Shown in pieces: positions 6,881-38,064 of a stretch of DNA of 38,064 nt. The notes below the pieces were generated by a model. The model saw only the letters and a program-made list of their open reading frames with translations. It searched no databases and was not told where the DNA came from. Made by a program: the position numbers and the translations under genes. Position 1 is the stretch's first letter; each line of letters begins with the position of its first letter. The stretch is from Alphaproteobacteria bacterium. GTDB taxonomy: Bacteria; Pseudomonadota; Alphaproteobacteria; Caulobacterales; Hyphomonadaceae. The stretch is from positions 1 through 38,064 of the forward strand of contig JAGWYJ010000032.1 in assembly GCA_018969425.1 (NCBI GenBank), read 5' to 3'.

Positions 6881-8614
6881 ATGGTGTTCGGTTTTGGCGG
6901 GAAAAAGCCCTCCCAGGTTAAGGCGGCTCCGCCCGTCAGCGCGGGGGCCTCGTCCGGGCTCCAGGCCCCCCTCTTCGGGCTGATGCAGGATTTCCCTCTG
7001 ACGGTGGACAAGATCCTCGAGCACGCGCGCGTCAATCACGGGTTCCGTGAGATCGTGACCCGAACGGTTGAGGGCCCGATTATTCGCCAGACCTACGCCG
7101 AGATCTATGACCGGGCGAAGCAGTGCTCCTCCGCATTGCTGGAGGACGGGATGAAGATGGGCGATCGCATCGCCACGCTGGCATGGAACACGGGTCGACA
7201 CATGGAGACCTGGTATGGGGCCATGTGCATCGGCGGTGTCCTTCACACCGTCAATCCTCGTCTGTTCCCGGAGCAGATCGCATGGATCATCAATCACGCT
7301 GAAGACACCCACCTCTTCTTCGACACGACCTTCCTGCCGATCGTCGAGGCCATTCATTCGAAATGTCCGACTGTGCGGCGCTATGTGCTGCTGACAGACG
7401 AGGCGCACATGCCGAAGGAAACCTCGATTCCCAACCTTGTCGCTTACGAGACGTATATCGCGGGCAAGTCAAGAGACGTGGTCTGGGGCGACTTCGATGA
7501 ACGCACCGCCTGCGGCCTTTGCTATACGTCCGGGACGACCGGAGATCCCAAGGGCGTTCTTTACTCGCATCGCTCGAACGTCCTCCATGCGCTGATGGCG
7601 CTTCAGAAGGACGGTCTGGCGCTTGGAGCAGGCGATGTCGTTCTTCCTGTAGTCCCCATGTTCCACGCCAACGCCTGGGGCATCACCTTCTGCGGTCCGC
7701 TGACAGGCGCCAGCATTATCATGCCGGGCGCCAAGATGGATGGCGCCTCGATCTTCGAGTTGCTCGACACAGAGAAGGTGACCTTCTCGGCCGCCGTTCC
7801 GACGGTCTGGCTGATGCTGCTTCAGCACCTCGAGGCCAACTCCCTGTCGCTGCCTCACCTTGGTCGCGTCGTCATCGGCGGGTCTGCTGTACCCGAGAGA
7901 ATTCTCCGCGCCTTCGAGGAGAATTATCAGGTGGAAGTCGTTCACGCCTGGGGCATGACGGAGATGAGTCCCATGGGTTCGCTCGGTTCGATGACCCCGG
8001 AGATTATCGCCAAGGGCCGGGATGAAGTGGTTCGCTACAAGCTGAAGCAGGGTCGCCCGCCTTTCGGCGTTCAGATGAAGATCGTCGACGACAATGGCGC
8101 GGATGTGGCTCGCGACGGGAAGACCTCCGGTCATCTCGTGGTTCGCGGGTGGGCTGTCGCCAGCGGTTATTTCAAAGGGGTTGGGGGAAACATTCTCGAT
8201 AAGGACGGATTCTTCGACACCGGAGATGTGGCCAATATCTGTCCGCTCGGCTTCATGCAGATCACCGACCGCGCGAAGGATGTGATCAAGTCTGGCGGCG
8301 AGTGGATCTCCTCGATCGACATCGAGAATATCGCCGTCGGCCACCCGGCCGTAGCCAACGCGGCCGCCATCGGCCTGGCGCATCCGAAATGGGATGAGCG
8401 TCCGTTGCTCATCATTGAGCTGAAGCCTGGCGCAAGCGCCTCTCGGGAAGAGATACTCACCTTCCTCGACGGCAAAATCGCAAAATGGTGGATGCCCGAC
8501 GACGTCGCCTTCATTGAGAAGATCCCGCTCGGAGCGACGGGCAAGATCAACAAGCTGCAGCTTCGCGACACCTTCAAGACCTACAAGCTTCCCACCATTC
8601 AGGCGACGGGATGA
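6881..8614 (+). CDS. Medium/long-chain acyl-CoA synthetase (AlkK/FadD type)
   Basis: This 577-aa AMP-forming ligase activates a carboxylic acid to its CoA thioester through an acyl-adenylate. The adenylation signature YTSGTTGDPKG is at residues 215-225, followed by the family blocks PMFHANAWG, VVIGGSAVPE, HAWGMTEMSPMG and GFFDTGDVA. The C-terminal GATGKINK supplies the catalytic lysine (about residue 555). The HANAWG and AWGMTEMSP wording is typical of the AlkK-like branch, which prefers medium-chain acids, but specificity cannot be read here. GGGAGAAG precedes the ATG. The stop overlaps the next start (ATGA), so the DUF1499 gene is translationally coupled. Confidence 0.9.
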   Translation: MVFGFGGKKPSQVKAAPPVSAGASSGLQAPLFGLMQDFPLTVDKILEHARVNHGFREIVTRTVEGPIIRQTYAEIYDRAKQCSSALLEDGMKMGDRIATLAWNTGRHMETWYGAMCIGGVLHTVNPRLFPEQIAWIINHAEDTHLFFDTTFLPIVEAIHSKCPTVRRYVLLTDEAHMPKETSIPNLVAYETYIAGKSRDVVWGDFDERTACGLCYTSGTTGDPKGVLYSHRSNVLHALMALQKDGLALGAGDVVLPVVPMFHANAWGITFCGPLTGASIIMPGAKMDGASIFELLDTEKVTFSAAVPTVWLMLLQHLEANSLSLPHLGRVVIGGSAVPERILRAFEENYQVEVVHAWGMTEMSPMGSLGSMTPEIIAKGRDEVVRYKLKQGRPPFGVQMKIVDDNGADVARDGKTSGHLVVRGWAVASGYFKGVGGNILDKDGFFDTGDVANICPLGFMQITDRAKDVIKSGGEWISSIDIENIAVGHPAVANAAAIGLAHPKWDERPLLIIELKPGASASREEILTFLDGKIAKWWMPDDVAFIEKIPLGATGKINKLQLRDTFKTYKLPTIQATG

Positions 8615-9489: not shown

Positions 9490-11118
9490 TCAGCCCGCAG
9501 GGGGCGCTTCGGCTTTTCGACACATGTAACGCGACCGGTGGATGTCTTCCGCGTTGTCCTCATATCCGGTGATGTTCGGATCGACGATGTCCTGAGTGAC
9601 CCGCACGAGGAGGGGCAGGACCGCAGCATCGTCCAGAAGGATTTGCTCGGCCTGTTTGAGGAGTCCTGCGCGCGCGTTGGGATCGAGTTCCTTGCTCGAC
9701 TGATCCAGGAGCGCGTCATACTTGGGGTTGGCGTAGGCTCCGTAGTTCATCGGGCCTGTCCGGCTGTCGAGAAGGTAGAGAAAATTGTAGGCGTCGTTGT
9801 AGTCGGCGACCCAGCCGGTATCGGCGACAGCGTAGTCCTTGGACTGCAGCTGGTTGTAGAGGGCCTGCGTTTCGACCTGGCGAATTTCCGGTTTGACCCA
9901 GGGGGCGATGTCCGACCAGTTCGCCTGAAGCACAGGCGCGATACGCGGATTATCGCCGGAAGCGCGATGGGCGTACTCGAATGCGAACGGGCGGTCAGGT
10001 CCGAAGCCGGCCTCTTCAAGCAGCTGCTTTGCTTTCTGGAGGCGCTGCTCTCTCGGCAGGTCAGACCATGTGAATCGCGCGCCCTCCGGATACCCGTTCA
10101 TGCCGGGAGGAACGAAGCCGTACGCTGGGAGCTGTCCGCCCTTGAGAATGTTGGCGACAATGTATTCCCGGTCCATCGCCAGCGCGAGCGCTTCGCGGAC
10201 CCGGGGATCATTGAACGGCTCACGGGTGGTGTTGGCGACGACATAGGTGGTCGCCATCATGGGCGCTATACGCGGCCAGCCGGGAAGTTTCTTTCGGGTC
10301 TCTTCGAGCTGACCGCTGGGGAAGGAGTTGTTCATGTCGATTTCGCCAGCCTGCGCTCGACGCACCATCTGGTCGTGGTCTGCGATCGGAAAGTAGACGA
10401 TCTCGCTGAAGCAGAGCTCAGAGGCTCCCGAGAACGCCTCGTTCTTCACCGATCGAATAAAATCGCCCGATCTCCATTCCGCGAGCTTATAGGGCCCGTT
10501 CACCACCAGATTAGCCGGGTCCGTCCAGTCCTCTCCGTGAACCTTCACGACATGCTCTGGGATCGGAAACGCGGTGTAATGCTTGAGGACGCCAGGCAGG
10601 TAGGGCATGGGATGCTCAAGGGTGATCTCGAGCGTGTAGTCGTCGATCGCTCGGACTCCGAGCTGGTCGGTTGGCAGTCTCCCGCCATTCACGTCGCGGG
10701 CGTTCTTGATGCCGTACTGGATCGACGCATAGACCGCGCCGACCGTCTTGGGATCGAGCAGTCTGCGGAAGCCGTAGACAAAGTCATTCGCCGTCAGCGG
10801 CGTCCCGTCTGACCAGTTGGTCTGTTTAAGCTTGAAGGTCCAGACGAGACCATCGTCGGACACGGTCCAGCTCTCCGCCACGCCAGGCACCGGACGAGCT
10901 GCGGCGTCTTCGGTGAACAGTCCGATGAACATGTCCCCGATCACGTCGTTGGCCCAGGTGCCTTCCGCCTGCTGAGGGTCGAGGCTGTCAGGATTAGCGC
11001 CGATGCCGCGCCGCAGCTGCTCGGCGGCAGGCGTTCGGGGTTCTGTCTCGCCGCACGCGCCGAGCGCGAGAACTGCAGCTGCCAGGATTCCGCTGAGCGC
11101 TGCGAACCTGTGGGCCAT
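9490..11118 (-). CDS. oppA: Oligopeptide ABC transporter substrate-binding lipoprotein (OppA type)
   Basis: This 542-aa protein is a family 5 solute-binding protein that would capture peptides in the periplasm for an Opp/Dpp-type importer. The N-terminus is a lipoprotein signal with lipobox LGAC (lipidated Cys about residue 22). Family features follow: GIGANPDSLDPQQAEG, WTVSDDGLVWTFKLK, NWSDGTPLTANDFVYGFRRL and the REPFNDPRVREALALAMDR helix. I chose the ATG at 11118 because AAAGGAGA sits 8-9 nt upstream and it gives the right signal peptide. No permease or ATPase gene is adjacent; matching oppB-oppC genes lie 9 kb away (20245-22138), also on the reverse strand. Confidence 0.92.
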   Translation of the reverse strand: MAHRFAALSGILAAAVLALGACGETEPRTPAAEQLRRGIGANPDSLDPQQAEGTWANDVIGDMFIGLFTEDAAARPVPGVAESWTVSDDGLVWTFKLKQTNWSDGTPLTANDFVYGFRRLLDPKTVGAVYASIQYGIKNARDVNGGRLPTDQLGVRAIDDYTLEITLEHPMPYLPGVLKHYTAFPIPEHVVKVHGEDWTDPANLVVNGPYKLAEWRSGDFIRSVKNEAFSGASELCFSEIVYFPIADHDQMVRRAQAGEIDMNNSFPSGQLEETRKKLPGWPRIAPMMATTYVVANTTREPFNDPRVREALALAMDREYIVANILKGGQLPAYGFVPPGMNGYPEGARFTWSDLPREQRLQKAKQLLEEAGFGPDRPFAFEYAHRASGDNPRIAPVLQANWSDIAPWVKPEIRQVETQALYNQLQSKDYAVADTGWVADYNDAYNFLYLLDSRTGPMNYGAYANPKYDALLDQSSKELDPNARAGLLKQAEQILLDDAAVLPLLVRVTQDIVDPNITGYEDNAEDIHRSRYMCRKAEAPPAG

Positions 11119-11180
11119 GGTGCGAACTCTCCTTTGTGGGGCCGTGGTCACGGACCCGGGCTTTCCTTTAACGGAAACTA

Positions 11181-11245: not shown

Positions 11246-11773
11246 ATGAAAATTCTGTCAGCGCTCGCCTGCTGGGTTGGCCTTTCACTGCTCGCGCCGA
11301 TCGCGACGGCGCAGGAAAGGCCCCTTGATCCTGTTCTGGCCTGTCTTTCCATTTCCCCGGACGCAGAGCGCCTCTCCTGTTTCGATCGGGAGGTGAAACG
11401 TCTCCGGTCTGAGGAGACCGACGGCCGCCTCGCGGTCGTTACGAGCGATCAGATCCGAAGGGTCGAGACTGAAGCCTTCGGACTGAAACTCCCATCCGTT
11501 CCCGCCCTTACCGGCGGGATCCTGTCTGGCGGGGCGAAAGGGGCCGCCCCGATGGAGGCTCTCACGCTACGCGTGGATCGCCTGGAGGTTGGATCAGACG
11601 GGCGCATGCGCCTTGTGATGGAGAATGGTCAGGTCTGGCGTCAGACGGACGACATACGCCTGGGCGGGTTGGGTAAAGGGCCCTGGAGGGCTGAGATCCG
11701 CCGCGCGGCCCTCGGCAGTTATATGGTCAAGCTGGACGGTCGGACCGCATTCCGCGCGGAGCGGCGGGAGTAA
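11246..11773 (+). CDS. Exported protein of unknown function
   Basis: The 175-aa product has a clear signal peptide (MKILSALACWVGLSLLAPIA, cleavage after ATA). A short motif with two cysteines follows (LACLSISPDAERLSCFD, Cys33 and Cys45), probably a disulfide. The C-terminal half has a beta-rich pattern, VMENGQVWRQTDD and WRAEIRRAALGSYMVKLDG. This layout, an N-terminal C-x11-C-F/Y-D motif plus an 'ENGQVWRQ' domain, resembles small alphaproteobacterial periplasmic proteins of unknown role. I cannot assign a function. It is divergent from oppA and 21 bp upstream of another exported unknown, so the two are probably one operon. Confidence 0.75.
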   Translation: MKILSALACWVGLSLLAPIATAQERPLDPVLACLSISPDAERLSCFDREVKRLRSEETDGRLAVVTSDQIRRVETEAFGLKLPSVPALTGGILSGGAKGAAPMEALTLRVDRLEVGSDGRMRLVMENGQVWRQTDDIRLGGLGKGPWRAEIRRAALGSYMVKLDGRTAFRAERRE

Positions 11774-11794: not shown

Positions 11795-12415
11795 ATGAAC
11801 GCGAGATCGGTTGTCGGCGGAATGTTGACAGGGCTTGCGGTCGTCTGGCCGGCTGAACCGGCCTTCGCCGATAGCGCGTCCTGCTATGTCAGCCGCTCAG
11901 GCGATTATGGCGAGATCATCGTGACCGTGTCCGGAGGCGCGCGCGACGAGGCTCCTCTGGCCTGGGCTCCCGCGCCAGAGCGACGGCTCGAATCCGACCA
12001 CTTCGCTCCCCCGGGATTGATGCTCGAGTACTCCGGACTTGTCCCTGAGAGACTGACGAGGCCTGTGTCGGCCCAGATCCTGGTCTCGCGGGTCGCCGAC
12101 AGCACTCTGGGACCAGGCCCCTCGATTGAATCGCTGAGCGTTCGTGCGACCCTGCAGTCAGGCATGGTCATGCTCTGGTCCTGGCGCGACAGGAGGGAGG
12201 CCGAAGCCCGCCTTGCACGCAATGTGGAGCATGCGGGCGAACGTCTGGTGATTGAGCTCCTGGGGCCGGACAGACAAGTTCTGGCGAGCTCATCCTTTCT
12301 CATTCGTCCTGACGGCGCGCTTCGTGAGGCGCTTCGAGGGGCTGGCGCGGAGGCCGGCGGTCTTGAACGGTCTCCTCAAGGGGAGTGTCGCGCACGCGCG
12401 GGAGCGGGTTCCTGA
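11795..12415 (+). CDS. Exported protein of unknown function
   Basis: The 206-aa product begins with a signal peptide ending PAFA-DS. The mature part looks like a mostly beta protein with a Ser-Phe-Leu-Ile-Arg strand near the end and a low-complexity Gly/Ala/Arg tail. I recognise no family. AGGAG lies very close (3-4 nt) to the ATG at 11795. It follows the preceding exported-protein gene by 21 bp and converges with the sulfatase gene, whose stop is only 11 bp away, so transcripts from the two sides would overlap. Confidence 0.65.
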   Translation: MNARSVVGGMLTGLAVVWPAEPAFADSASCYVSRSGDYGEIIVTVSGGARDEAPLAWAPAPERRLESDHFAPPGLMLEYSGLVPERLTRPVSAQILVSRVADSTLGPGPSIESLSVRATLQSGMVMLWSWRDRREAEARLARNVEHAGERLVIELLGPDRQVLASSSFLIRPDGALREALRGAGAEAGGLERSPQGECRARAGAGS

Positions 12416-12426
12416 CAACACTTCGA

Positions 12427-13947
12427 TCAGGCGGGCGGACCGTCCGCACCTGCCTTGAGGTTCGGGAATTTCCTTACGCTGTCCTCGTAATCGCGCTGGA
12501 TCTGATCGACGCTACGTCCCCTAAACCAGCCGCTGGTGAAACCGACATGCCAAAGCTCCTTGGGGTCTGACTCAAGATGGAAGACCCAGGGATAATTGGG
12601 CTCGGTCACGACCCCGACCGACACATTCTGTCCCGGGGCGCGCACCAGACCTTCGGCCGGCTCCCTGACCTTGAAGTGGATCTTGTAGCTTCGCCACTTC
12701 ACCGCCAGCAGCTCGTCACGGTAGAAAAACATACAATGCTCGCGGGCCGACTTTTCAGCGTCGCCGAAGAGAAAAGCGCTCTGGTCCACGGAGTCGACGG
12801 CCCGGTCTGACGGAATTCGCTCAGACGCCCCGGCGAGACCGGCGAATGTCCGGTAGAAGTCCAGAAGCGAGACGATCTCATTGCTGACCCGACCCGCAGA
12901 GGTCCGGCCGGTCCAGCGGACGATGCACGGAGTTCTGACGGCGCCCTCCCATGCGCTCGCGAATTCATTCCGGAAGGGGCCGGTGTCAGACTGGCCGCCA
13001 TAATCGATGCCTACGCCCTGAAAGCTCTGGGGGCCGTTATCGCTGGCGAAGACGACGATCGTGTCCTCGTCGATCCCGGCAGCGGACAGCTCGTCGAGGA
13101 TGCGTCCGACATTATAATCGATTTCGGCGAGAACGTTCTGATACTGCGTGCGGCCCGGCTTCACGAAATCAGGATGCGCAAGCGGCGGGACATGGGGCAG
13201 GGTGAAGGGGGTATAGAGGAAAAACGGCTTCTGTTCTTTTGATTTCCGACGGATGAAATCTACTGACCTGTCCGTGACCTCGCGATCGATGAACGGTCTG
13301 TAGGCGTAGTCATAGTCGCGAAGCGTGCGGCTCGGCTCGCCCTTGCGACCCTCCATTACGGGCTGTTCCTGATAGACCGCAGGGTCGAAGTCCGGTTGCA
13401 GCGCCCAGGCTGTCTCTCCGCTCGACCGGGGTATGCCGAACCATTCGTCGAAGCCCTGCATCGTCGGCAGTCGTCCCTGAGAGGATCCGAGGTGCCATTT
13501 CCCGAAGCATGCGGTGGCGTATCCAGCGTCCGAAAGGAGCTCTGACAGCGTGTATTCCCACGTGGCGAGCCCGTCCCGACCTTCAGAAATCACCACGCGA
13601 GACGTTCCGCTCCGGATAGGCATGCGTCCGGTCATGAAGGCGGATCGTGAGGGCGTGCACTCCGGTTCGACGTTGAAGTTCGTCAGGCGCAGGCCTTCGG
13701 CTGCGAGCTTGTCGATGCGCGGCGTATTCTGTCCGCGAATAGGACCAACATAACAACTGAGATCTCCCCATCCCATATTGTCGACGAGCATGAAAACGAT
13801 GTTCGGGGCCTTTCCAGGGGATCGGGCGCTGCGGCTTCGCGTCCGGGTCTGGGCGTCTGCGCTCATCCGTGCGGAGAGGGCAAGCAGCCCTCCGCCGACG
13901 AGCAGGTCTCGTCGGCGGGCGCCCGAAGGAGGAACGGGTGACTTCAT
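12427..13947 (-). CDS. Type I sulfatase with Tat-type signal
   Basis: The 506-aa protein hydrolyses a sulfate ester using a formylglycine made from Cys97 in CTPSRSAFMTGR (CxPSR motif). Other sulfatase features are GKWHLG and VFASDNGP. The N-terminal metal site reads VDNMGWGDL, with Asn57 where most sulfatases have the second Asp. This DN variant is, as far as I recall, seen in a branch of arylsulfatase-like enzymes. The N-terminus ARRRDLLVGGGLLALSA is a twin-arginine signal, so it folds in the cytoplasm and is exported, which suits modification by the FGE next door. Start ATG 13947 has AGGAG 10 nt upstream and overlaps the FGE stop (ATGA). Confidence 0.92.
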   Translation of the reverse strand: MKSPVPPSGARRRDLLVGGGLLALSARMSADAQTRTRSRSARSPGKAPNIVFMLVDNMGWGDLSCYVGPIRGQNTPRIDKLAAEGLRLTNFNVEPECTPSRSAFMTGRMPIRSGTSRVVISEGRDGLATWEYTLSELLSDAGYATACFGKWHLGSSQGRLPTMQGFDEWFGIPRSSGETAWALQPDFDPAVYQEQPVMEGRKGEPSRTLRDYDYAYRPFIDREVTDRSVDFIRRKSKEQKPFFLYTPFTLPHVPPLAHPDFVKPGRTQYQNVLAEIDYNVGRILDELSAAGIDEDTIVVFASDNGPQSFQGVGIDYGGQSDTGPFRNEFASAWEGAVRTPCIVRWTGRTSAGRVSNEIVSLLDFYRTFAGLAGASERIPSDRAVDSVDQSAFLFGDAEKSAREHCMFFYRDELLAVKWRSYKIHFKVREPAEGLVRAPGQNVSVGVVTEPNYPWVFHLESDPKELWHVGFTSGWFRGRSVDQIQRDYEDSVRKFPNLKAGADGPPA

Positions 13948-14918
13948 GATGTTGCGCTCCTGTCGTCTGTCTCGTTGATGCTGCGGACGCATCGAAATCC
14001 GATGTGGCTGGCCCCGGTGTCGATATCCTGCGGATGTCGGGCCGCCGGCCTGTACCGGCGGCAGTAGTTCGGTGCGCACATAAATGACCCCCCTTTGAGA
14101 ACCTTTCGGGGAATACGGCCGCCGCGGGGGCGATCGAGGCTCGCCTGTGCGTTCCGGTTCCGGGGGTTGCTGAGCGCACAGCAGGACTTCGGCGGCGCCG
14201 AATCTTTATGGGGAGCGAAGTAGTCGTCGGTCCACTCCCACACATTGCCGATCATGTCGAACAGTCCGAAATCATTGGCCGGAAAAGCGCCTACCGGAGT
14301 TGTGCCGAAACCTGTCGGGTCGTCTTCAGGAGGAGAAGGAAAGTCTCCGCGCCAGGTATTCGCCATCCGGCGGCCGTCCGGATGCAGACAGTCTCCCCAC
14401 GCGTAGACCGCACCCTTGAGCCGGCCTCTCGCCGCAAACTCCCACTCCGCCTCGGTTGGAAGACGCAGCCCCGCCCAGGAGGCGTAGGCGTCCGCATCTT
14501 CAAGGGCGATGTGGACAACCGGATGGTCCGGGTGGGCGGGCCTTCCCTCCGGTCCGAAGGGGCTGCGCCAGTTCGCCCCCCGGATCAGTCGCCACCACTG
14601 AGACGGATCCCGCAGAGATGCCGGATGCGGGGGCGGCGCGAAAACCATTGAAGCTGGCTGAAGCAGGTCAGGGTCCGCATCCGGATAGTCCTCCGAGCGA
14701 AGCGCCCGCTCTGCCACGGTCTCATATCCGGTCGCATCGACAAATCGCCCGAAGGATCGGTTGGTGACCGGGGTTCGCTGTATGAAGAAGGGATCGACAT
14801 CGACCAGACGCACGGGAGATTCTTCGGGGTAGAAGCCGTCGCATCCCATCAGGAACCGCCCTCCCGAGATGGAGACCAGATCCGCTTCCGAGGGGGGCTG
14901 GCGGTGGGTCCGTTCCAT
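13944..14918 (-). CDS. Formylglycine-generating enzyme (SUMF1/FGE)
   Basis: FGE oxidises the active-site cysteine of sulfatases to formylglycine, using oxygen and copper. This is a true FGE, not just a relative: both catalytic cysteines are present in GGSFMCAPNYCRRYRPAARH (Cys281, Cys286 of 324). The family blocks GGRFLMGCDGFYPEE, RLPTEAEWEFAARG and DMIGNVWEWTDDYF are intact. I prefer ATG 14918 over the upstream ATG 14963, because GGAG precedes 14918 and the upstream ATG lies inside the predicted -10 box (14953-14962). It is the first gene of a two-gene operon with the sulfatase. It probably also serves the second sulfatase at 18748-20205. Confidence 0.93.
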   Translation of the reverse strand: MERTHRQPPSEADLVSISGGRFLMGCDGFYPEESPVRLVDVDPFFIQRTPVTNRSFGRFVDATGYETVAERALRSEDYPDADPDLLQPASMVFAPPPHPASLRDPSQWWRLIRGANWRSPFGPEGRPAHPDHPVVHIALEDADAYASWAGLRLPTEAEWEFAARGRLKGAVYAWGDCLHPDGRRMANTWRGDFPSPPEDDPTGFGTTPVGAFPANDFGLFDMIGNVWEWTDDYFAPHKDSAPPKSCCALSNPRNRNAQASLDRPRGGRIPRKVLKGGSFMCAPNYCRRYRPAARHPQDIDTGASHIGFRCVRSINETDDRSATS

Positions 14919-14952
14919 GGGGCGAGGACTCCATCCCTCATCGTCACACGGG

Positions 14953-14962
14953 AATGCTAGCA
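14953..14962 (-). promoter_or_regulatory. Extended -10 box of the FGE-sulfatase operon
   Basis: Reverse-strand TGCTAGCATT supplies TGC plus a -10 hexamer TAGCAT, 20 nt after the AraC half-site. The start would be near 14947, about 29 nt before ATG 14918. Nearly the same element, TGCTAGCCTT, stands in the matching place before the decarboxylase operon (16103-16112). Confidence 0.55.
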
Positions 14963-14979
14963 TGCGTGGCTGGAGAGAC

Positions 14980-15016
14980 TTGATAATCAGCGTCGCAAGA
15001 TTGATAATTCACGACA
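14980..15016. promoter_or_regulatory. AraC-type operator, two direct half-sites 21 bp apart
   Basis: Half-site 1 is TTGATAATCAGCGTCG (14980-14995) and half-site 2 is TTGATAATTCACGACA (15001-15016). They start exactly 21 bp apart, two helical turns, as AraC-family sites usually do. Half-site 2 plus one base before it recurs exactly, inverted, before the decarboxylase operon. The proximal half-site abuts the -35 position of the FGE-sulfatase promoter. The operator lies only 21 nt before the araC-type start codon, so autoregulation is likely. Confidence 0.75.
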
Positions 15017-15037
15017 AAATGACGCTCGGGAGACGAG

Positions 15038-16042
15038 ATGCGGGAGTGGGTCCGGGTTCGCGCGCTGTCAGGGTTTGAGTCCTACGTCGATGAGCAGGGC
15101 GGACGGGCGCGCACCATACTCTCCCGACTTGGGCTGACACGCAGACAGCTGTCGGATCCTGAGGGCTGGATCCCGTTGCAGAGCGTTCTCCGGGCGTTCG
15201 AGATGGCCGCCCGGGAACTGGCGACCCCGGATTTCGGCTACCGATTTTCTAAGTATCGCGACTTCGGGTTTCTGGGCCCCGTTTTCATAGCCGCCCGTCA
15301 CAGCCCGGACGTCAGAAGCGCGCTGGAGTGTCTGACACGGTATTTCGGCATTCAGAACACGGGAGTGCGCTTCACACTGACTGTTGAGGCGGGACGAGCC
15401 GTACGCGGCTATCACGTCAATTCGTCCCTCAGGAAGACGGCGGATCAGTGGATTGAGGAATCGCTGACGACCTTTCCCGTTCTTCTGGAGGCTCTCTCGG
15501 GGCGTGAGCCGAGGGTCTCACGGATTCTCATGCGGCATGCCCCAAACCGCTCAATCAGGATTTATCGTCAGCAATTCGAAGCTGAAGTCCTGTTCAATCA
15601 GGCCATCGACGCAGTGGAGTTCGACGCAGACATCCTCGACTGTCCCCAGCCTTATCGAGACGCGCAGCTTCACGGTTATCTTCGCGACTATCTCGAATCG
15701 AGGTTGGCGGGCGGTGTTGAGGATATCGAGATGGTGGTGGCGACTGTTCTGGAGACCCTGATCCCCGCCCATCAGGGACGGATCGAAGCGGTGTCTGAGC
15801 AGCTCGGCCTTCATCCGAGAGCGCTTCAGCGTCGCCTGAAGGCGAGGGGACTGAAATTTGCGGATATCCTCGATGAGCGGCGGCGACTGATTTCCGAACG
15901 ATTGCTGCTCAAGGGAGGAATGCCGCTCGGAGAGATAGCCGCTCACGTGGGCTATTCTGAGCAAAGCGCTTTCAATCACGCCTTCCGACGTTGGCGGGGC
16001 ATGGCTCCCGGAGACTGGCTCGAGCGGCATGCAGAGCCGTGA
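15038..16042 (+). CDS. AraC-family transcriptional regulator (OruR/ArgR-like architecture)
   Basis: The 334-aa protein has an N-terminal arabinose-binding-type effector domain (PF12625-like; GWIPLQSVLRAFEMAA, FGFLGPVFIAARHSPDVRSA) and a C-terminal double helix-turn-helix (about residues 245-330: RIEAVSEQLGLHPRALQRRL, then GEIAAHVGYSEQSAFNHAFR). Relatives with this architecture, such as OruR, often respond to amino acids or related compounds. GGAG stands 6 nt before the ATG. It is divergent from the FGE-sulfatase operon and in line with the decarboxylase operon. The paired half-sites in both promoters make it the obvious local activator. The effector is unknown. Confidence 0.92.
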   Translation: MREWVRVRALSGFESYVDEQGGRARTILSRLGLTRRQLSDPEGWIPLQSVLRAFEMAARELATPDFGYRFSKYRDFGFLGPVFIAARHSPDVRSALECLTRYFGIQNTGVRFTLTVEAGRAVRGYHVNSSLRKTADQWIEESLTTFPVLLEALSGREPRVSRILMRHAPNRSIRIYRQQFEAEVLFNQAIDAVEFDADILDCPQPYRDAQLHGYLRDYLESRLAGGVEDIEMVVATVLETLIPAHQGRIEAVSEQLGLHPRALQRRLKARGLKFADILDERRRLISERLLLKGGMPLGEIAAHVGYSEQSAFNHAFRRWRGMAPGDWLERHAEP

Positions 16043-16047
16043 GACTT

Positions 16048-16085
16048 TGTCGCCCATGATCAAGCTTGTGTCGTGAATTATCAAT
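16048..16085. promoter_or_regulatory. AraC-type operator before the decarboxylase operon
   Basis: On the reverse strand the half-sites read TTGATAATTCACGACA (16084-16069) and TTGATCATGGGCGACA (16063-16048), 21 bp apart. The first is identical to half-site 2 of the other operator; with one extra base (16085) the match is 17 bp. Orientation relative to the controlled gene is the same in both promoters, and the proximal half-site abuts the -35 position. Confidence 0.75.
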
Positions 16086-16102
16086 GCAGGTCAGGGGCGG
16101 CT

Positions 16103-16112
16103 TGCTAGCCTT
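16103..16112 (+). promoter_or_regulatory. Extended -10 box of the decarboxylase operon
   Basis: TGCTAGCCTT gives TGC plus the hexamer TAGCCT. It begins 17 nt after the operator and 45 nt before the ATG, so a start near 16118 leaves a leader of about 30 nt. No good -35 box exists, as expected for an activator-dependent promoter. Confidence 0.5.
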
Positions 16113-16147
16113 CGCCTCATTGATCGGATCTGCATGAGGCGGACGCC

Positions 16148-17407
16148 ATGACGTTATCTTCCCGCACACCCTTTCCGCGTTCAGGACGCGAGTGGCCGGA
16201 CCTGCTCTCCGACATGCGGGCGCGAACCGAACGTGACGCCGATCCTCTGGAGGGACAGACAGCTATATTCTTTTTCCTGTCCGATCCGGAGACCTATCAG
16301 GTCGGAAAGCGCGCCTACATGGAGTTCTTTTCGGAAAATGCTCTTGGAGCGGCGCGCGCCTACCCTGGCATCGGGCAGATGGAGAGAGAGGTATGCGATT
16401 ATGGTCTGGAGCTTTTTCATGCTCCGCCGGAGGCGCGCGGGATATTTACGACCGGCGGAACCGAGAGCATTTTTGTCGCCGTGCGTGCGGCGCGGGAGGC
16501 GTTCAGGGCGAAAAACGGCGTGGGACGCGAGACCCAGCTGAACATCGTCATGCCGGTCACCGGTCATCCGGCCTTTGACAAATCTGCGATCGTCATGGAC
16601 CTGGAAGTCAGACGCGCTCCCCTGACATCCGATCTGCGGGTTGACGTTTCAGTTATGCGGGAGCTGATCGACGATAACACCATGATGCTTGTGGGGTCGG
16701 CGCCATGTTTCCCCCATGGGGTCATTGACCCATTGACGGAGTTGAGCGACCTCGCCGTCGAGAGAGATGTGTGGCTTCATACTGACGCATGCGTGGGCGG
16801 TTGGGTCGCGCCGTTTTTTGAGCGCATAGGACGTGGAACTCCGACCTTCGATTTCAGATTGCCGGGAGTCCGATCGATCTCGGCTGACCTTCACAAGTTC
16901 GGCTTCACGCCAAAGCCGGCGTCTACGCTCTATTTTCGTTCCGGCGAGGACGTGGAGCGGACGACGTTCCGTCTCGGATACTGGCCAAGCGGGGTCTATA
17001 CGACCGCGACGTTCTCCGGAACGAGACCTGGTGCGGCCGTTGCAGCGGCCTGGGCGGTTCTGAACCATCTGGGAATTGAGGGGTATGAACGCGCGGCCCG
17101 CAATCAGGCGGAGATGGTCGATCGCTACGTCAGCGGTTTGTCCGCCATTGAGGGTCTCATCTTCCATGCGCGACCGGATGTCACCATTCTCAATTTCGGC
17201 GCCGAGGACCTCGACATTTACTCAGTCGCGGACGGCATGCGGGCCAGAGGATGGGTGCCCGGGCTGACGACAACTCCCCGAGGCATGCACACTATGCTTT
17301 CGATGCAGCATGAACCTGCGAGGGAGCGGTATCTGTCGGATCTGAGGGATTGCTTTGGGACTGTGCGCGAGGCTCAGTCCAAGAGCGCGTCGACCGCGAC
17401 ATACTGA
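16148..17407 (+). CDS. Sphingosine-1-phosphate-lyase-like PLP-dependent decarboxylase/lyase
   Basis: The 419-aa protein is a fold-type I PLP enzyme of the group II decarboxylase superfamily, closest in wording to sphingosine-1-phosphate lyase. Visible features are TTGGTESIF (residues 101-109, phosphate contact), HTDACVGGW (Asp213 contacts the pyridine nitrogen) and SADLHKFGFTPKPASTLYFR (Lys250 forms the Schiff base). It lacks the N-terminal membrane helix of eukaryotic S1P lyases, as bacterial ones may. Family members either cleave phosphorylated long-chain bases or decarboxylate amino acids; which applies here is unknown. It leads the predicted AraC-controlled operon with the aminotransferase and sulfatase. 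GAGG stands 10-13 nt before the ATG. Confidence 0.85.
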   Translation: MTLSSRTPFPRSGREWPDLLSDMRARTERDADPLEGQTAIFFFLSDPETYQVGKRAYMEFFSENALGAARAYPGIGQMEREVCDYGLELFHAPPEARGIFTTGGTESIFVAVRAAREAFRAKNGVGRETQLNIVMPVTGHPAFDKSAIVMDLEVRRAPLTSDLRVDVSVMRELIDDNTMMLVGSAPCFPHGVIDPLTELSDLAVERDVWLHTDACVGGWVAPFFERIGRGTPTFDFRLPGVRSISADLHKFGFTPKPASTLYFRSGEDVERTTFRLGYWPSGVYTTATFSGTRPGAAVAAAWAVLNHLGIEGYERAARNQAEMVDRYVSGLSAIEGLIFHARPDVTILNFGAEDLDIYSVADGMRARGWVPGLTTTPRGMHTMLSMQHEPARERYLSDLRDCFGTVREAQSKSASTATY

Positions 17408-18747: not shown

Positions 18748-20205
18748 GTGAGGATTTCACTCGATTTCGGTGTGAGAGTTTCGGGACGGATCCGCGCTCT
18801 GGCTCTGGCGATCCTGACGATCTCTCTGCCGGCCTGCACGCAGTCGCCTGACCCTCATCAGGGCCGCCCCCCAAATATTGTCGTGATACTCGCGGACGAC
18901 CTTGGATACGGCGACCTGGGCGTGCAGGGAGCGTCTGTCTCCGTGACCCCGAGGATCGACCGGCTGGCGGCCGAGGGTGTGCGCATGACCGAGTTCTATG
19001 CGGCGCACCCGACGTGCTCGCCGAGCCGCGCCGGACTGCTCACGGGGCGCTACCAGCATCGCTTCGGTTTTGAGAGCAACCCGGCGCCGGTCCACCAGAC
19101 GGACCCCAATTACGGCCTCCCGGTGACCGAAGCGACGCTGGCTGAGCGGCTGCGTGATCAGGGTTATGCGACGGGCATGATCGGTAAATGGCATCTGGGT
19201 TATCAGGATGACAAGGCGCCCGAGGCGAGGGGGTTCGATGTATTTTATGGCCTGCGTCACGGTTCGATGGCGTACGTTCCCACCGGGCCTTCGGGACTGA
19301 AAACCGTTTTTCGCGGGCGCGAGGTCGAGCCGATGCCGGCGCATACGACTGAGGCCTTCGCCGATGAGGCTGTCAGCTTCATACGGGACCATCGCCAGTC
19401 GCCGTTCTTCCTCTACGTGGCGTTCACCGCAGTCCACGCTCCCATGCAGTCGACGGAGCCTTACCTCTCCAGATATTCGGACGTCGCAGACCCCAGGCGT
19501 CGCGCCTTCCTCGCCATGCTGACGGCTCTCGACGATGGGGTCGGACGGATCGTCGATGAGATTGACCGGAACGGCCTCGCTGAGGACACGCTGATCATAT
19601 TCACCAGCGATAACGGAGGTCCGACCTGGCAGACCACCTCATCCAACGGCCCGCTGAATGGCGTCAAGGCGTTGCTTCTTGAAGGCGGGATTCGCGTTCC
19701 GGCGATTTTTCGGCGCCCTGGCGAGCTGCCGGCCGGACGGGTGCTGGCGACCCCGGCGATTGGTCAGGACATAGCTGCGACTGTTCTTCGGACGGCCGGC
19801 GCGCCTGGAACGGAGGATCTCGACGGACGCGATCTGATCCCGTTTCTGGAAGGTAGCCGGGCAGGCCCTGTGCACAGGGCCCTTTATTGGCGCGCCCTGA
19901 GCCAGGGAGCGGCCAGAGAGGGAGACTGGAAGATACTCAAGGCTGACGACGCCTGGTTCCTGTTCAATCTTCGTACCGACCCCGGAGAGCGTCGCAATCT
20001 TGCCTCTGCTGAGCCGGAGCGGCTGACCCGGATGCGACAGGACTGGGAGAGATGGTCCTCCGAAATGATGGCGCCCCAATGGGTTAGGGAGGATCTTCCG
20101 GGTGGGGAGAATCGTCCGCGGGAACTCAAAAAACTGATTGAGGACTACGTAGCGGGCGCACCGGTCAATCCGCGTGAGGTGCTCTATGGCGGAGGGCCGG
20201 AATAG
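18748..20205 (+). CDS. Type I sulfatase, predicted lipoprotein
   Basis: The 485-aa sulfatase has the formylglycine motif CSPSRAGLLTGR (Cys90) and the full metal pair in ADDLGYGDLG (Asp50, Asp51), with GKWHLG and IIFTSDNGG further on. The N-terminus carries a hydrophobic stretch ending LPAC (Cys30), a plausible lipobox, so it is probably membrane-anchored in the periplasm. The start is GTG 18748, with GGAAGG 9 nt upstream. It is the third gene of the operon led by the PLP lyase. The FGE at 13944-14918 would activate it. It is not a close copy of the first sulfatase: it lacks the Tat signal and has the DD rather than the DN site. Confidence 0.92.
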   Translation: MRISLDFGVRVSGRIRALALAILTISLPACTQSPDPHQGRPPNIVVILADDLGYGDLGVQGASVSVTPRIDRLAAEGVRMTEFYAAHPTCSPSRAGLLTGRYQHRFGFESNPAPVHQTDPNYGLPVTEATLAERLRDQGYATGMIGKWHLGYQDDKAPEARGFDVFYGLRHGSMAYVPTGPSGLKTVFRGREVEPMPAHTTEAFADEAVSFIRDHRQSPFFLYVAFTAVHAPMQSTEPYLSRYSDVADPRRRAFLAMLTALDDGVGRIVDEIDRNGLAEDTLIIFTSDNGGPTWQTTSSNGPLNGVKALLLEGGIRVPAIFRRPGELPAGRVLATPAIGQDIAATVLRTAGAPGTEDLDGRDLIPFLEGSRAGPVHRALYWRALSQGAAREGDWKILKADDAWFLFNLRTDPGERRNLASAEPERLTRMRQDWERWSSEMMAPQWVREDLPGGENRPRELKKLIEDYVAGAPVNPREVLYGGGPE

Positions 20206-20244: not shown

Positions 20245-21147
20245 TCAGCGATCTTTCGGATCGAGCGCGTCTCTGAGGCCGTCCCCGATGAAGTTCAGCG
20301 AAAATAGCGTCACCACCATGGTGAGAGCCGGCGCAAGAAGCATCCATGGGGTTGAAAGTTCGCGCTGTCCCTCTGAAATCAGACGACCGAGGGATGTCAG
20401 AGGTTCCTGGACGCCGAGTCCAATGAAGGACAGGAAGCTTTCCTGCAGGATCACCACGGGCATGGTGAGCGTCACGTAGACCGCCACGGGACCGAGAAGG
20501 TTAGGCAGAATGTGACGGACGACCAGTCCGAGGGGCTGCACCCCTGCAGCGCGCGCCGCCTCCACGAACTCCTTCTGCTTCAGCATCAGGGTCTGGCCCC
20601 GGACGATCCGGGCCATGGTCATCCATTCGACTGCGCCGATAGCTAGGAAGATCAGGAAGATGTGGCGACCGAAGACAACCGTCACCAGGATGACGAAGAA
20701 GATAAAGGGCATGGCGTAGATGATGTCGACGATGCGCATCATGACCTGATCGGTCCGGCCGCCGGCGAAGCCGGCGATCGCGCCCCAGGCGACGCCGATC
20801 ACGAGACTCACGAAGGTGGCGATTGCGCCCACGGCGAGCGAGATCCTGAGGCCGGTCATCACCCGGGCGACGAGATCGCGTCCGTAGATGTCAGTCCCCA
20901 GGAGATGGAGATTTTCGAATGTAGGGCCGATCGCGAGGCGGTCGCGATACTGTGTGGCGAAGTCGTGAGGCCAGAGGAATGGGCCGAAGACGGCGATCAG
21001 AGTGATCAGCCCGAGCACCACGAACCCGGCCATTGCGGCGCGATTAGCCAGCAGCCGCCGCAGGGAATCGTCCCAGAGCGAGCGTCCCTTGACCACGGCG
21101 CCTGTGAGCAGCGCCTCGCTCTCTGACGGGGCGAGGAGGGGGGTCAT
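20245..21147 (-). CDS. oppC: Peptide ABC transporter permease (OppC/DppC type)
   Basis: This is a 300-aa inner-membrane permease of the Opp/Dpp family. It has the N-terminal OppC domain (LRRLLANRAAMAGFVVLGLITL), the LLGTDIYGRDLVARVMTGLRISL block, five further hydrophobic helices and the EAA-type loop EAARAAGVQPLGLVVRHILPN that docks with the ATPase. The gene follows oppB by 10 bp on the reverse strand. No ATPase gene (oppD or oppF) follows: the next gene downstream is the convergent sulfatase. The binding protein at 9490-11118 is the likely partner. Confidence 0.93.
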   Translation of the reverse strand: MTPLLAPSESEALLTGAVVKGRSLWDDSLRRLLANRAAMAGFVVLGLITLIAVFGPFLWPHDFATQYRDRLAIGPTFENLHLLGTDIYGRDLVARVMTGLRISLAVGAIATFVSLVIGVAWGAIAGFAGGRTDQVMMRIVDIIYAMPFIFFVILVTVVFGRHIFLIFLAIGAVEWMTMARIVRGQTLMLKQKEFVEAARAAGVQPLGLVVRHILPNLLGPVAVYVTLTMPVVILQESFLSFIGLGVQEPLTSLGRLISEGQRELSTPWMLLAPALTMVVTLFSLNFIGDGLRDALDPKDR

Positions 21148-21157
21148 GATGCGCGCC

Positions 21158-22138
21158 TCATTCGTATCGCACCTTCGGATCGAGCATGGCGTAGAGAAGA
21201 TCGGCGATGAGATTGAACAGGATGATAAGTCCCCCGTAGAGGATAACTGTCCCCATCACCCTCGGATAATCCCTCGTCATCGCCCCGTCGATGAAGGACT
21301 GGCCGATTCCGGGCAGGCCGAAGACGCGCTCGACGACGACCGATCCTGTGATGATCCCGACGATGGCGGGGCCAAGATAGGAGACAACCGGAAGGATAGC
21401 CGTGGGCGCCGCATGACGCATGAGGATGGCGGCGTCGCTGAGGCCTTTGGAGCGGGCGGTTCGGATATGATTGGAACGAAGGGTCTCGATCATGGAGGCT
21501 CGCATGAGCCGCGAGATGATCGCTATCTGCGGGAGAGCGAGCGTGATCACAGGCAGGAAGAGATTGTTGAACGTCATTCGTCCCAGGTCGAGTCCGCCGG
21601 CGGCGAACCAGCCGAGCCAGACGCCGAGGATCAGGGACAGGAGCGGGCCGGTCACAAAGGTCGGGATTGATATTCCCACCATGGCGAGCCCCATCGCGGA
21701 GTAGTCGGCGGGCGAGTTCTGCCGGACTGCGGCGATTACGCCGAACCCTACTCCCAGGAATATCGCCAGCGACATCGACAGCGCGCCGATGGTGAAACTG
21801 ACAGGAAGCCCTTCTCCTATGAGTTCGGAGACGGACTTGTCCTTGTTCTTCATTGAGGGACCGAGGTCCCCTGTCACCACTCGGCCGAGATATTGGAGGT
21901 ATTGCTCGTGCAGGGGGCGGTCGAGACCCAGGCTGGCCTTGAGGTTCGCTTCCACCTCCGGGGTCAGCTTCCGGTCGGTTGAGTACGGATTGCCTGGAGC
22001 CGCCCGCATCATGAAGAAGGCGATGGTGATGATCGCCAGCATGGTTGGGATCGCCGACAGGAGCCGGCGGGCCGCATAGGCCCACGGAAAGCGGCCGATG
22101 AAGCGCGATAAGGCGGAGGAGGATGACGCGTCGGACAA
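21158..22138 (-). CDS. oppB: Peptide ABC transporter permease (OppB/DppB type)
   Basis: The 326-aa permease has the OppB pattern: an N-terminal helix (RRLLSAIPTMLAIITIAFF), RAAPGNPY, ASLGLDRPLHEQYLQYLGRVVTGDLG, and the EAA-like loop RTARSKGLSDAAILMRHAAPTA. It ends in LIADLLYAMLDPKVRYE. The start appears to be TTG 22138, giving about 25 residues before the usual family start; no strong ribosome binding site is visible and no in-frame ATG occurs before the first helix. It is divergent from the TIGR01244 gene, with 108 bp between them. Confidence 0.92.
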   Translation of the reverse strand: MSDASSSSALSRFIGRFPWAYAARRLLSAIPTMLAIITIAFFMMRAAPGNPYSTDRKLTPEVEANLKASLGLDRPLHEQYLQYLGRVVTGDLGPSMKNKDKSVSELIGEGLPVSFTIGALSMSLAIFLGVGFGVIAAVRQNSPADYSAMGLAMVGISIPTFVTGPLLSLILGVWLGWFAAGGLDLGRMTFNNLFLPVITLALPQIAIISRLMRASMIETLRSNHIRTARSKGLSDAAILMRHAAPTAILPVVSYLGPAIVGIITGSVVVERVFGLPGIGQSFIDGAMTRDYPRVMGTVILYGGLIILFNLIADLLYAMLDPKVRYE

Positions 22139-35415: not shown

Positions 35416-36579
35416 CTAGGCGGCTGAAGTCTCGCTCTTCTCTCCGGGATGGGTCTTGGGCGCGGGCACAGCCTCGTAACGGGCGAGGAGCCTTGGTCCG
35501 TGGAAGATGGCGAGGCGTCCGTCCGGGTATTCCTGAACCCGGACGGACGCCTTTACAAAGTGCCGGCGGTGCGTGTGCTCTGGGATCTGCAGGATGCGTC
35601 CTTCGTAGCGCACGGTATTGTCCTTCGAGACGACGCGCTCTTCATGGATGCAGAGGATGTTGGCCAGATCGCCGACGAAAGGAATGAAAGCCGATCCGTC
35701 CTCTTCCGCCGCGACGCTGAACCGGGCGTTGTGTTGGGCTATGTAGACGTCCCTGAGCCAGGCATTCGCCGTCTCGATATCGTTGATCCGGGCCAGCCTC
35801 ATATCCTGCGGCAAGCGTCCCTGCAGCGTGCCGAAGACGCGCTCCATCCGACCGCGCGCCTCAGGCGAGTAGGACGGTATATGGTTGATCCTCAGCTGGG
35901 CCAGAGCCCGGCCGACCTGTGTGGGATTGTTCCTGTCGACCTTTCCGCCAGCCTCCGGAGTGTTGAAGTAATGGCTGCCCCGATCGGTGTAGAAGGCTGA
36001 AAACAGACCGTATTTCTCGATCGCCTCAGCAAGCCCGCGAAACGTCGATGCAGTCCCCTCCTGCTCGCAGAAAAAGGCGGAGAGGATACGCCCCGTGGCG
36101 TCATCCAGCGTTACGATCAGGTCGCAGGGCGCACGCCTGCCGCAGAACCAGTCGTGCGTCGAGCCATCCTGGAACACCAGCATGCCTGGGAGCGCCGAGC
36201 GGGGACGCCTCCTGCGGTGGGGCCCGCGTTTGCTTGAGGGCTTCACCAGCCCGCGCAGGTAGAGCACGGACTTCGTCCACGTGTAGCCGTATCGAAACTC
36301 CGGATGGGCTTTGCACAACGCCTCATGAAAATGCTTCGGCGTGAAGTCGAAATACTTCGTCCGGTACTGGTCTGCGACAAAATTCGCTGTCTCATCAGGG
36401 GCCTTGTTCGAAGCTGGCCGACCGCGACGCCTGTCCACGATCGCCTCGGCGCCCCCCTCCTCATAGCTATCCCGCAAACGGCGAAAATGCCGCTCGCTCA
36501 TCCCCAGCAGCTCAGCCGCCTCTATACAGCTGAGCCGCTTCTCTCTCACCCGTCCGATCGCATCAACGATCCGAGCCAT
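35416..36579 (-). CDS. IS1202-type transposase
   Basis: The 387-aa transposase has an N-terminal helix-turn-helix (IEAAELLGMSERHFRRLRDS), a KAP/RRRP-rich linker and a DDE integrase core. The catalytic residues are probably Asp138 (LVFQDGSTHDWF), Asp199 (FYTDRGSHYF) and Glu246 (EARGRMERVFGTLQGRLP). The C-terminal part (TVRYEGRILQIPEHTHRRHF) is also typical of the ISNCY/IS1202 group. I chose ATG 36579 because GGAGG lies 5 nt upstream. The frame is intact, with no stop or frameshift, so the element may be active. Confidence 0.9.
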   Translation of the reverse strand: MARIVDAIGRVREKRLSCIEAAELLGMSERHFRRLRDSYEEGGAEAIVDRRRGRPASNKAPDETANFVADQYRTKYFDFTPKHFHEALCKAHPEFRYGYTWTKSVLYLRGLVKPSSKRGPHRRRRPRSALPGMLVFQDGSTHDWFCGRRAPCDLIVTLDDATGRILSAFFCEQEGTASTFRGLAEAIEKYGLFSAFYTDRGSHYFNTPEAGGKVDRNNPTQVGRALAQLRINHIPSYSPEARGRMERVFGTLQGRLPQDMRLARINDIETANAWLRDVYIAQHNARFSVAAEEDGSAFIPFVGDLANILCIHEERVVSKDNTVRYEGRILQIPEHTHRRHFVKASVRVQEYPDGRLAIFHGPRLLARYEAVPAPKTHPGEKSETSAA

Positions 36580-36618
36580 ACGAACCTCCGAAAGCAAAAC
36601 GACCCCCCCGGTGAAAAC

Positions 36619-36649
36619 CGGACAAATCGTGTGCTACGAAAAGCGGACA
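36619..36649 (-). repeat. Right terminal inverted repeat of the IS
   Basis: On the reverse strand it starts TGTCCGCTTTTCGTAGCA (one mismatch to the left end over 18 bp), with TGTCCG again 25 bp further, in the same register as at the left end. Confidence 0.85.
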
Positions 36650-36694
36650 TATCGAGTGGCGCCGACCGCCTGCACCGGGCCTAATTGTCGAGAG

Positions 36695-36708
36695 GCTACA
36701 ATTGTAGC
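36695..36708. repeat. 14-bp perfect palindrome after galE
   Basis: GCTACAATTGTAGC is self-complementary. It lies 32 bp after the galE stop and 45 bp from the IS end, in AT-richer DNA. It may be a terminator stem or a protein site; no T-run follows. Confidence 0.35.
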
Positions 36709-36739
36709 AAGATAAAAGCGGCACTCAGAATGAAAGTCA

Positions 36740-37735
36740 CTAGCTTATTTTAAGTTCCGCATTGGCGGACAGAGCCTTTTCCCAAGCAAGGGCGTGCTGA
36801 ACGATTGTATCCAAATCATCAAACCGAGGCGTCCAGCCTAGTTCCGCACGGATCCTGTCACTTTTGGCCACAACAGAGGCTGCGTCACCTGGCCGACGAC
36901 GTGCCATCCGAACGGAGAAATCGGCTCCAGAAACCCGCTTAACCGTCTCGATTACGTTCAGTACAGAGAACCCACGACCGTATCCGCAATTCAACAAAAG
37001 ATTATTTCTGCCTGAGCGAAGTGCATCGAGGGCGAGCAAATGCGCAGAAACAAGATCGCTAACGTGTATATAGTCTCGAACGCCGGTACCGTCGGGGGTC
37101 GGATAATCTGTCCCGTACACGTCAATGCCGTTTCTTTTTCCGAGCGCGGCTTGAACGCACACCTTTATCAAATGGGTCGCTCTTTCGGTAGATTGGCCTG
37201 CGCGCCCTCGGGGATCGGCACCGGCCACATTGAAATAACGAAGAATTGCGTGGGGAAACCGGTGCGCAATCGAAGCATCTATTAAAATTCTTTCGGTCAG
37301 GAGCTTCGAAGCTCCGTAAGGCGATTCAGGATTGGCTGGCGTAGCTTCTTCGACAAACTCGCTAGTCGGCGTTCCATAAACGGCTGCGGTCGATGAAAAG
37401 AGAAAAGGTCGCCCGCCCGCGGCTGCGAGTGCTTCAATCATACTGTGCGCTTTGATTGTATTGTTTCGATAATACCCAAGCGGATCTCTGACGCTGTCGG
37501 GAACGACCGTCGAGGCTGCAAAATGTATGACAGAGTCTACGCGCTCGCGATCGAGTATCTGCCGAGCGCCTACTTCGGCTATGTCGCAATTATAGAACAC
37601 AACACCGTCGGGAACGGCAGGTCGGAAGCCTGTTGTTAAATTGTCTACGACAACGACGTCTTCCCCGCGGTCGCGGAGTGCGAGCGCCATATGCGACCCG
37701 ATATAGCCCGCTCCACCCGTAACAAGGACTGCCAT
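36740..37735 (-). CDS. galE: UDP-glucose 4-epimerase
   Basis: The 331-aa enzyme interconverts UDP-glucose and UDP-galactose, feeding polysaccharide synthesis. The Rossmann motif is VTGGAGYIGSH. Catalytic residues are in FSSTAAVYG (Ser/Thr) and SPYGASKLLTE (YxxxK), with RYFNVAGADPRGRAGQ, YGTDYPTPDGTGVRDYIHV and the C-terminal RRPGDAASVVA all typical of GalE. GAGGTGAG stands just before the ATG at 37735. Base composition is clearly lower in GC than the rest of the window. With IS sequences on both sides, this suggests acquired surface-polysaccharide DNA. Confidence 0.94.
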   Translation of the reverse strand: MAVLVTGGAGYIGSHMALALRDRGEDVVVVDNLTTGFRPAVPDGVVFYNCDIAEVGARQILDRERVDSVIHFAASTVVPDSVRDPLGYYRNNTIKAHSMIEALAAAGGRPFLFSSTAAVYGTPTSEFVEEATPANPESPYGASKLLTERILIDASIAHRFPHAILRYFNVAGADPRGRAGQSTERATHLIKVCVQAALGKRNGIDVYGTDYPTPDGTGVRDYIHVSDLVSAHLLALDALRSGRNNLLLNCGYGRGFSVLNVIETVKRVSGADFSVRMARRRPGDAASVVAKSDRIRAELGWTPRFDDLDTIVQHALAWEKALSANAELKIS

Positions 37736-37928
37736 AGCTCACCTCATAAGGCGCGGTTCGACGGGACCAATCCGCGAACTCGCATGTGGAGCATCAAGCG
37801 GGCTATTGCAAGAGGCGGCTTTGTGGTCGATAGATTATAGACTTAGGAGTAGAGAGCGGTGTCAGCGAATTTGTCGTCTGAGTTTGGTGTGAAAGTATAG
37901 GCTCGGGCGGCCGGAATAGGGTGACACA

Positions 37929-38064
37929 TTGGCTTACTCACCCGAACGTAAGGCAGCGGTTCTGAAGAAGATGCTGCCTCCGAACACGATCTCCCTTCGC
38001 CGGCTGTCGCAGGAAGAAGGGATATCGGAGATGACCCTCTCCAAATGGCGGGCTGAGGCCCGGG
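37929..38064 (+). CDS. Transposase N-terminal part (OrfA-like helix-turn-helix), runs off the window
   Basis: A frame begins at TTG 37929 and stays open to the window end. It starts MAYSPERKAAVLKKMLPP and continues SLRRLSQEEGISEMTLSKWR, the first helix-turn-helix of IS3-like OrfA transposases. The upstream stretch near 37860 (TGTCAGCGAATTTGTCGTC) may be the end of this element, but its partner lies outside. Confidence 0.7.
   Translation, partial: MAYSPERKAAVLKKMLPPNTISLRRLSQEEGISEMTLSKWRAEAR

Follow-up and report, generated by a model that had tools for sequence, protein, structure and literature searches.

The window, the whole stretch of 38,064 nucleotides that was analysed, contains a gene for an AraC/XylS-family regulator between two oppositely directed groups of enzyme genes, with a pair of direct half-sites on either side of it. 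The features, from left to right, are these:

12427-13947, minus strand: type I sulfatase 1, with a CTPSR motif and, by eye, a twin-arginine-like N-terminus
13944-14918, minus strand: formylglycine-generating enzyme (FGE), start ATG 14918
14953-14962, minus strand: TGCTAGCATT, extended -10-like element of the FGE operon, its TGCTAGC beginning at 14962, 17 nt past the gene-near operator end
14980-15016, plus strand: left operator, two direct half-sites, TTGATAATCAGCGTCG (14980-14995) and TTGATAATTCACGACA (15001-15016), pointing away from the FGE gene
14980-15008, plus strand: sigma-70-like site TTGATA-17-GATAAT in the left operator, 10/12 consensus letters, reading into the regulator gene
15038-16042, plus strand: AraC/XylS-family regulator, Arabinose_bd (PF12625) and HTH_18 (PF12833)
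16048-16084, minus strand: right operator, two direct half-sites, TTGATAATTCACGACA (16084-16069) and TTGATCATGGGCGACA (16063-16048), pointing away from the lyase gene
16056-16084, minus strand: weaker sigma-70-like site TTGATA-17-GATCAT in the right operator, 9/12 consensus letters, antisense to the regulator gene
16103-16112, plus strand: TGCTAGCCTT, extended -10-like element of the lyase operon, its TGCTAGC beginning at 16103, 18 nt past the gene-near operator end
16148-17407, plus strand: PLP enzyme nearest sphingosine-1-phosphate (S1P) lyase, PF00282
17355-18743, plus strand: class III PLP enzyme nearest ethanolamine-phosphate phospho-lyase, open reading frame as listed
18748-20205, plus strand: type I sulfatase 2, with a CSPSR motif

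The regulator belongs to its family by both domains, matching PF12625 over residues 21-203 (109.3 bits vs 27.6) and PF12833 over residues 253-330 (68.5 bits vs 33.6), and the genome has no second match to it at E<=0.001. Its best solved relative is the AraC-type protein VirS (PDB 8rcx), distant in sequence and aligned at near full length (residues 5-326, E 5.8e-40). The best NCBIfam model is that of the AraC-like QhpR (NF049968), which covers residues 46-327 over model positions 1-283 of 284; at 175.7 bits against a cut-off of 250, identity with QhpR was rejected. Structure prediction without an alignment was uninformative (mean pLDDT 42.3).

Among the enzymes, the FGE start is placed at ATG 14918 in preference to that at 14963, which overlaps the -10 element. 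Its GGSxMCxxxYCxRYR stretch, in which GGSFMCAPNYCRRYR aligns to GGSYMCHRSYCYRYR of 1y1e, holds a cysteine pair that we take to be the catalytic one. Both sulfatases carry the C-x-P-S-R formylglycine motif, and the start of sulfatase 1, chosen by inspection, shares an ATGA overlap with the FGE stop. The first gene of the right operon had been called a decarboxylase in the preliminary description. This label is probably wrong: the nearest solved proteins are S1P lyases (PDB 5eud, 3mad and 5k1r), at 251.2 bits vs 109.8 for the tyrosine decarboxylase MfnA, with E values of 1.9e-73 for 5eud (residues 95-414) and 5e-68 for 5k1r (residues 8-407) vs 1.5e-30 for MfnA. MfnA (TIGR03812) is the best NCBIfam model, yet it scores 241.6 bits against a cut-off of 299.4 and was rejected as an identification. 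The lyase here differs from the solved S1P lyases in being grouped with two sulfatases and an FGE, and cleavage of S1P by it is putative. The class III enzyme, whose true start is probably further in than that of the listed frame, has the ethanolamine-phosphate phospho-lyase 6tor_A as its best solved relative (292.7 bits; next 232.3), which suggests a putative enzyme of that kind.

The two operators share their layout and many of their letters. Both are 37 bp long, with half-sites spaced by 21 bp. Read on the gene strand, each consists of a TGTCG-N3-ATTATCAA-type half-site, twice, and the 5-nt linkers, TCTTG and GCTTG, have four of five letters in common. A block of 17 bp is identical between them (15000-15016 and, inverted, 16069-16085) and extends to 19/20 over 15000-15019 / 16066-16085; it is the promoter-distal half at the left operator and the promoter-proximal half at the right one. 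Checked against the sequence, the preliminary description stands as to the coordinates and letters of both operators, their spacing, their like orientation relative to the target gene (both run away from their own gene), the identical block and the common TGCTAGC element. The half-site ending that it gave, CGaCa, holds for three of the four half-sites; the remaining one ends in CGTCG.

Such resemblance is not readily produced by chance. Tests free of any motif built from the sites used 4,000 Markov shuffles of the two intergenic regions, in which the longest word common to both on the gene strand reached at most 12 bp, compared with 17 bp in the sequence. Self-similarity at lag 21 is 11/16 in the left region (P 0.0225) and 12/16 in the right (P 0.003), values as high in both jointly were seen in 0/4,000 shuffles, and among lags of 10 to 32, both regions have their maximum at 21. 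A 7-mer common to both at the -10 place has a P of 0.0065. The twin operators are thus real, and the improbability by chance that had been claimed for them is borne out by the common word and the joint lag. Further, the genome (3,245,086 bases in 91 contigs, completeness 99.98) contains the exact 17-mer twice, once on either side of the regulator gene; one other place resembles it with 3 mismatches and has no partner half-site at +/-21. The genome scan that had been proposed, with half-sites at 21-bp spacing, returned only the two operators at <=3 mismatches, the 37-bp pattern being circular in that it was built from them. A position-weight scan scored the operators at 48.8 and 48.0, the next place at 14.9, and at most 14.2 in 10 Markov windows; it found no tandem site upstream of the gene for a solute-binding protein (SBP) or of oppB, so the visible regulon consists of two operons and the regulator itself, and the transporter genes are not claimed as members. 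The window has more single half-sites at <=3 mismatches than shuffles do (125 vs 80), and such loose matches therefore carry no weight; at zero mismatches, only the four named half-sites are present.

The promoters beside the operators are of a kind that may need assistance. TAGCAT and TAGCCT make poor -10 hexamers, and the -35 position, placed here with a 17-bp spacer, reads CAAGTC on the left and AATGCA on the right, neither like TTGACA. The operator end extends into this position by 3 bp on the left and by 2 bp on the right. Both operators therefore have the arrangement of a tandem operator by the -35, namely two direct half-sites at 21 bp with the proximal half at the -35 edge, which is the usual place for activation. 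In known tandem AraC/XylS sites, the promoter-proximal half likewise lies at the -35 edge, and the AraC I1-I2 spacing is comparable. PMC4514859 gives CACC-N5-CTTCAA-N6-CACC-N5-CTTCAA for MekR (PmekA) and TGCA-N6-GGNTA-N6-TGCA-N6-GGNTA for XylS (Pm), from the letters of which a 21-bp period was counted here. As listed there, both are like the operators described here in having two direct half-sites with a 21-bp period upstream of target operons, and they differ from them in half-site letters. A further difference is that two operators here flank one regulator gene and that the left one holds the regulator's own likely promoter.

Because dimeric AraC/XylS activators have published tandem sites of this layout, a local regulon is well supported, and we infer that the adjacent regulator probably controls both flanking operons as a local AraC/XylS-type switch. 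As a dimer, it would bind the two tandem half-sites before each operon, the FGE-sulfatase operon on the left (operon 1) and the lyase/phospholyase-like/sulfatase operon on the right (operon 2). From the -35 edge, it would help RNA polymerase to use extended -10-like promoters that lack a recognisable -35, probably upon an inducer derived from the pathway substrate. The single switch of the preliminary description thus agrees with the twin operators, their layout and the adjacent AraC/XylS gene; its decarboxylase does not survive, and its activation step is carried over as a prediction.

Overlooked in that account was a sigma-70-like site of the left operator, directed into the regulator gene. 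When 14850-16250 was scanned for the sigma-70 consensus, two such sites turned up, each within an operator, against a shuffle mean of 0.2. The left one is the best of the region, with a predicted start near 15015 followed by GGGAG and the regulator ATG at 15038, and is likely the regulator's own promoter. Because the left operator contains this likely promoter, its occupancy should repress the regulator gene, on the opposite strand, while activating the divergent operon, and autorepression is accordingly a likely property of the switch. The 21-bp period of the TTGATAAT half-sites itself yields the 17-bp sigma-70 spacer. The right-hand site may be only a by-product of the motif.

If the similarity went back to a duplicated promoter, or followed from sigma-70-like promoters (TTGATA-17-GATAAT), and did not mark an operator, that would explain the sigma-70-like scores of the two operators, obtained in both cases on the strand opposite that of the target gene. 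However, the right-end promoter would then run antisense into the regulator gene, the CGACA half-site ends and the CTTG of the linkers are also alike although they lie outside the sigma-70 promoter parts, and the similarity of left and right largely stops beyond operator and -10; we consider such an origin extremely unlikely. Repression, by comparison, is likely at one place, where the left operator covers a good sigma-70-like regulator promoter, and the adjacent regulator might therefore use these operators as a repressor or mixed regulator of both operons. At the operons themselves, however, the half-sites lie upstream of the -10, in like orientation, and reach the -35 by no more than the overlaps given above, and -35 letters so far from consensus are expected of activator-dependent promoters, which makes repression of both operons improbable.

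Nor does the identity of the bound protein follow from the sites, as the sequence here gives no direct link between protein and site, and a DNA-binding protein encoded elsewhere might use them with the adjacent AraC-type gene as a bystander. The 17-mer and the site pair are nevertheless confined to both sides of this gene, and more sites would be expected of a global regulator; a bystander role is, in our view, very improbable. The preferred reading is thus control by the adjacent regulator.

The family, class, order, plasmid and contig searches yielded no relative that has the regulator as well as the operators. The regulator had matches in 2/104 other genomes of the family at E<=1e-40, both 30-31% identical, in 0/384 other genomes of the class at E<=1e-60 and in 0/397 of the order at E<=1e-45; the class and order searches scored at most 5 first-look candidates per genome, so misses are possible, and the three samples (105, 385 and 398 genomes) overlap. 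Among plasmids, 450 records matched, all below 60% identity and, among the 30 matches listed, at 26.9-29.7%. The search of genome contigs yielded no ortholog, and the DNA of 14900-16200 had no match among plasmids. Apart from the two own sites, the operator pattern at <=3 mismatches matched 19 times in the family, spread over 16 of the 104 other genomes. Each match stood on a contig of its own; 17 had three mismatches, 2 had two and none was closer. A reversed control pattern matched 0 times; the 19 matches are background.

The enzymes, in turn, do recur. In the Pseudomonadota MAG KLAP21 (L027), the lyase (71% identity), class III enzyme (81%), sulfatase 1 (65%) and sulfatase 2 (59%) are found together, accompanied by a TonB receptor; no FGE was found in the stretch fetched. 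An alkyl sulfatase (Alkyl_sulf_dimr, L027:4026-6038) lies beside this cluster, in line with a sulfated alkyl substrate. The L027 genome has no operator pair at <=3 mismatches and only a 25% relative of the regulator, elsewhere in the genome. Absence of the half-sites from a conserved cluster had been named in advance as evidence against the operators, and to the letter such absence is seen here; but because regulator and sites are absent together, this genome neither supports nor refutes the operator reading. Loose half-site counts, 4 in L027 (shuffles 2.2) and 13 in another lyase locus, L028 (shuffles 6.4), were not used as evidence. By sequence comparison, at least two genomes carry the enzyme set as a unit, and its control as described here has so far been seen in the window's genome only.

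Lyase homologs are more widespread than the cluster. At E<=1e-60, they occur in 76/105 family genomes (own included; 39-46% identity in the others) and in none of the other genomes of the genus; at E<=1e-118, with at most 4 candidates scored per genome, in 14/385 genomes of the class (own included); and in the phylum sample in 1/398, which is the own genome. Fifteen lyase loci were compared, from 12 of the 13 other class genomes (not G395) together with L026, L027 and L028, several of them cut by contig ends. A class III enzyme like that of the window adjoins the lyase directly in 2/15 (L027, 81%; L048, 49%), with a 23% relative 5 kb off the lyase in L050. Window-like sulfatases adjoin it in 1/15 (L027), an FGE match of 32% is present in L041, and the regulator is beside a lyase homolog in 0/15. 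The Sulfitobacter lyase (L026, 61%) has genes for an amino-acid ABC transporter and for a GntR regulator as neighbours, and no sulfatase; among plasmids, the class III enzyme has its closest relative (68%) in Mesorhizobium, where it adjoins a LysR regulator and is without a lyase. These counts and neighbourhoods weaken the idea of one fixed pathway, and since sulfatases adjoin the lyase in only one of the 15 loci, the idea of a sulfated substrate rests on two genomes.

As to what the operons may do, phosphoethanolamine is the substrate of the phospho-lyase. It is also a product of S1P lyase, as stated in PMC5234717, so that the pairing of lyase and class III enzyme is metabolically sensible. 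Together, the gene families suggest that a sphingoid-like amino alcohol, possibly sulfated, is broken down; the pathway would probably desulfate and cleave a sphingoid-like or other 2-amino-3-hydroxy compound. No literature on S1P lyase together with sulfatase in an operon or gene cluster was found in the paper library searched. The type of switch is well known and ordinary as gene regulation; the enzyme set attached to it is unusual. More tentatively, and with doubt prevailing over the combination as a whole, the locus might be a self-limiting two-operon switch, its regulator promoter built from an operator, for an undescribed pathway that desulfates sphingoid-like amino alcohols before S1P-lyase-like and ethanolamine-phosphate-lyase-like cleavage. 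For an uncharacterised regulator, the link to its targets is specific and testable, and it suggests how sulfated sphingoid-like compounds might be catabolised. Identity of the inducer would name the pathway substrate.

Several neighbours in the window are of separate note. Parts of an oligopeptide-type ABC transporter (SBP, OppC, OppB) flank the cluster at 9490-11151 and 20245-22138, with no ATPase gene among the scanned window ORFs and no operator; oppB/oppC-like genes (37%) also adjoin the lyase homolog in L044. Between the SBP gene and sulfatase 1, ORFs 11246-11773 and 11795-12415, the latter with a signal-peptide-like start by eye, have no Pfam or PHROGs matches and may not both be genes. 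A transposase-like gene (PHROGs) at 35416-36597 adjoins the stretch of lowest G+C in the window (36001-38000, 0.561). Finally, 6881-8614 encodes an AMP-binding ligase. The lyase homolog in L049 has a gene 54% identical to it as a neighbour, and the Sulfitobacter lyase is followed, at the second and third gene, by an aldehyde dehydrogenase and an AMP-binding gene, which hints that the lyase's aldehyde product is used.
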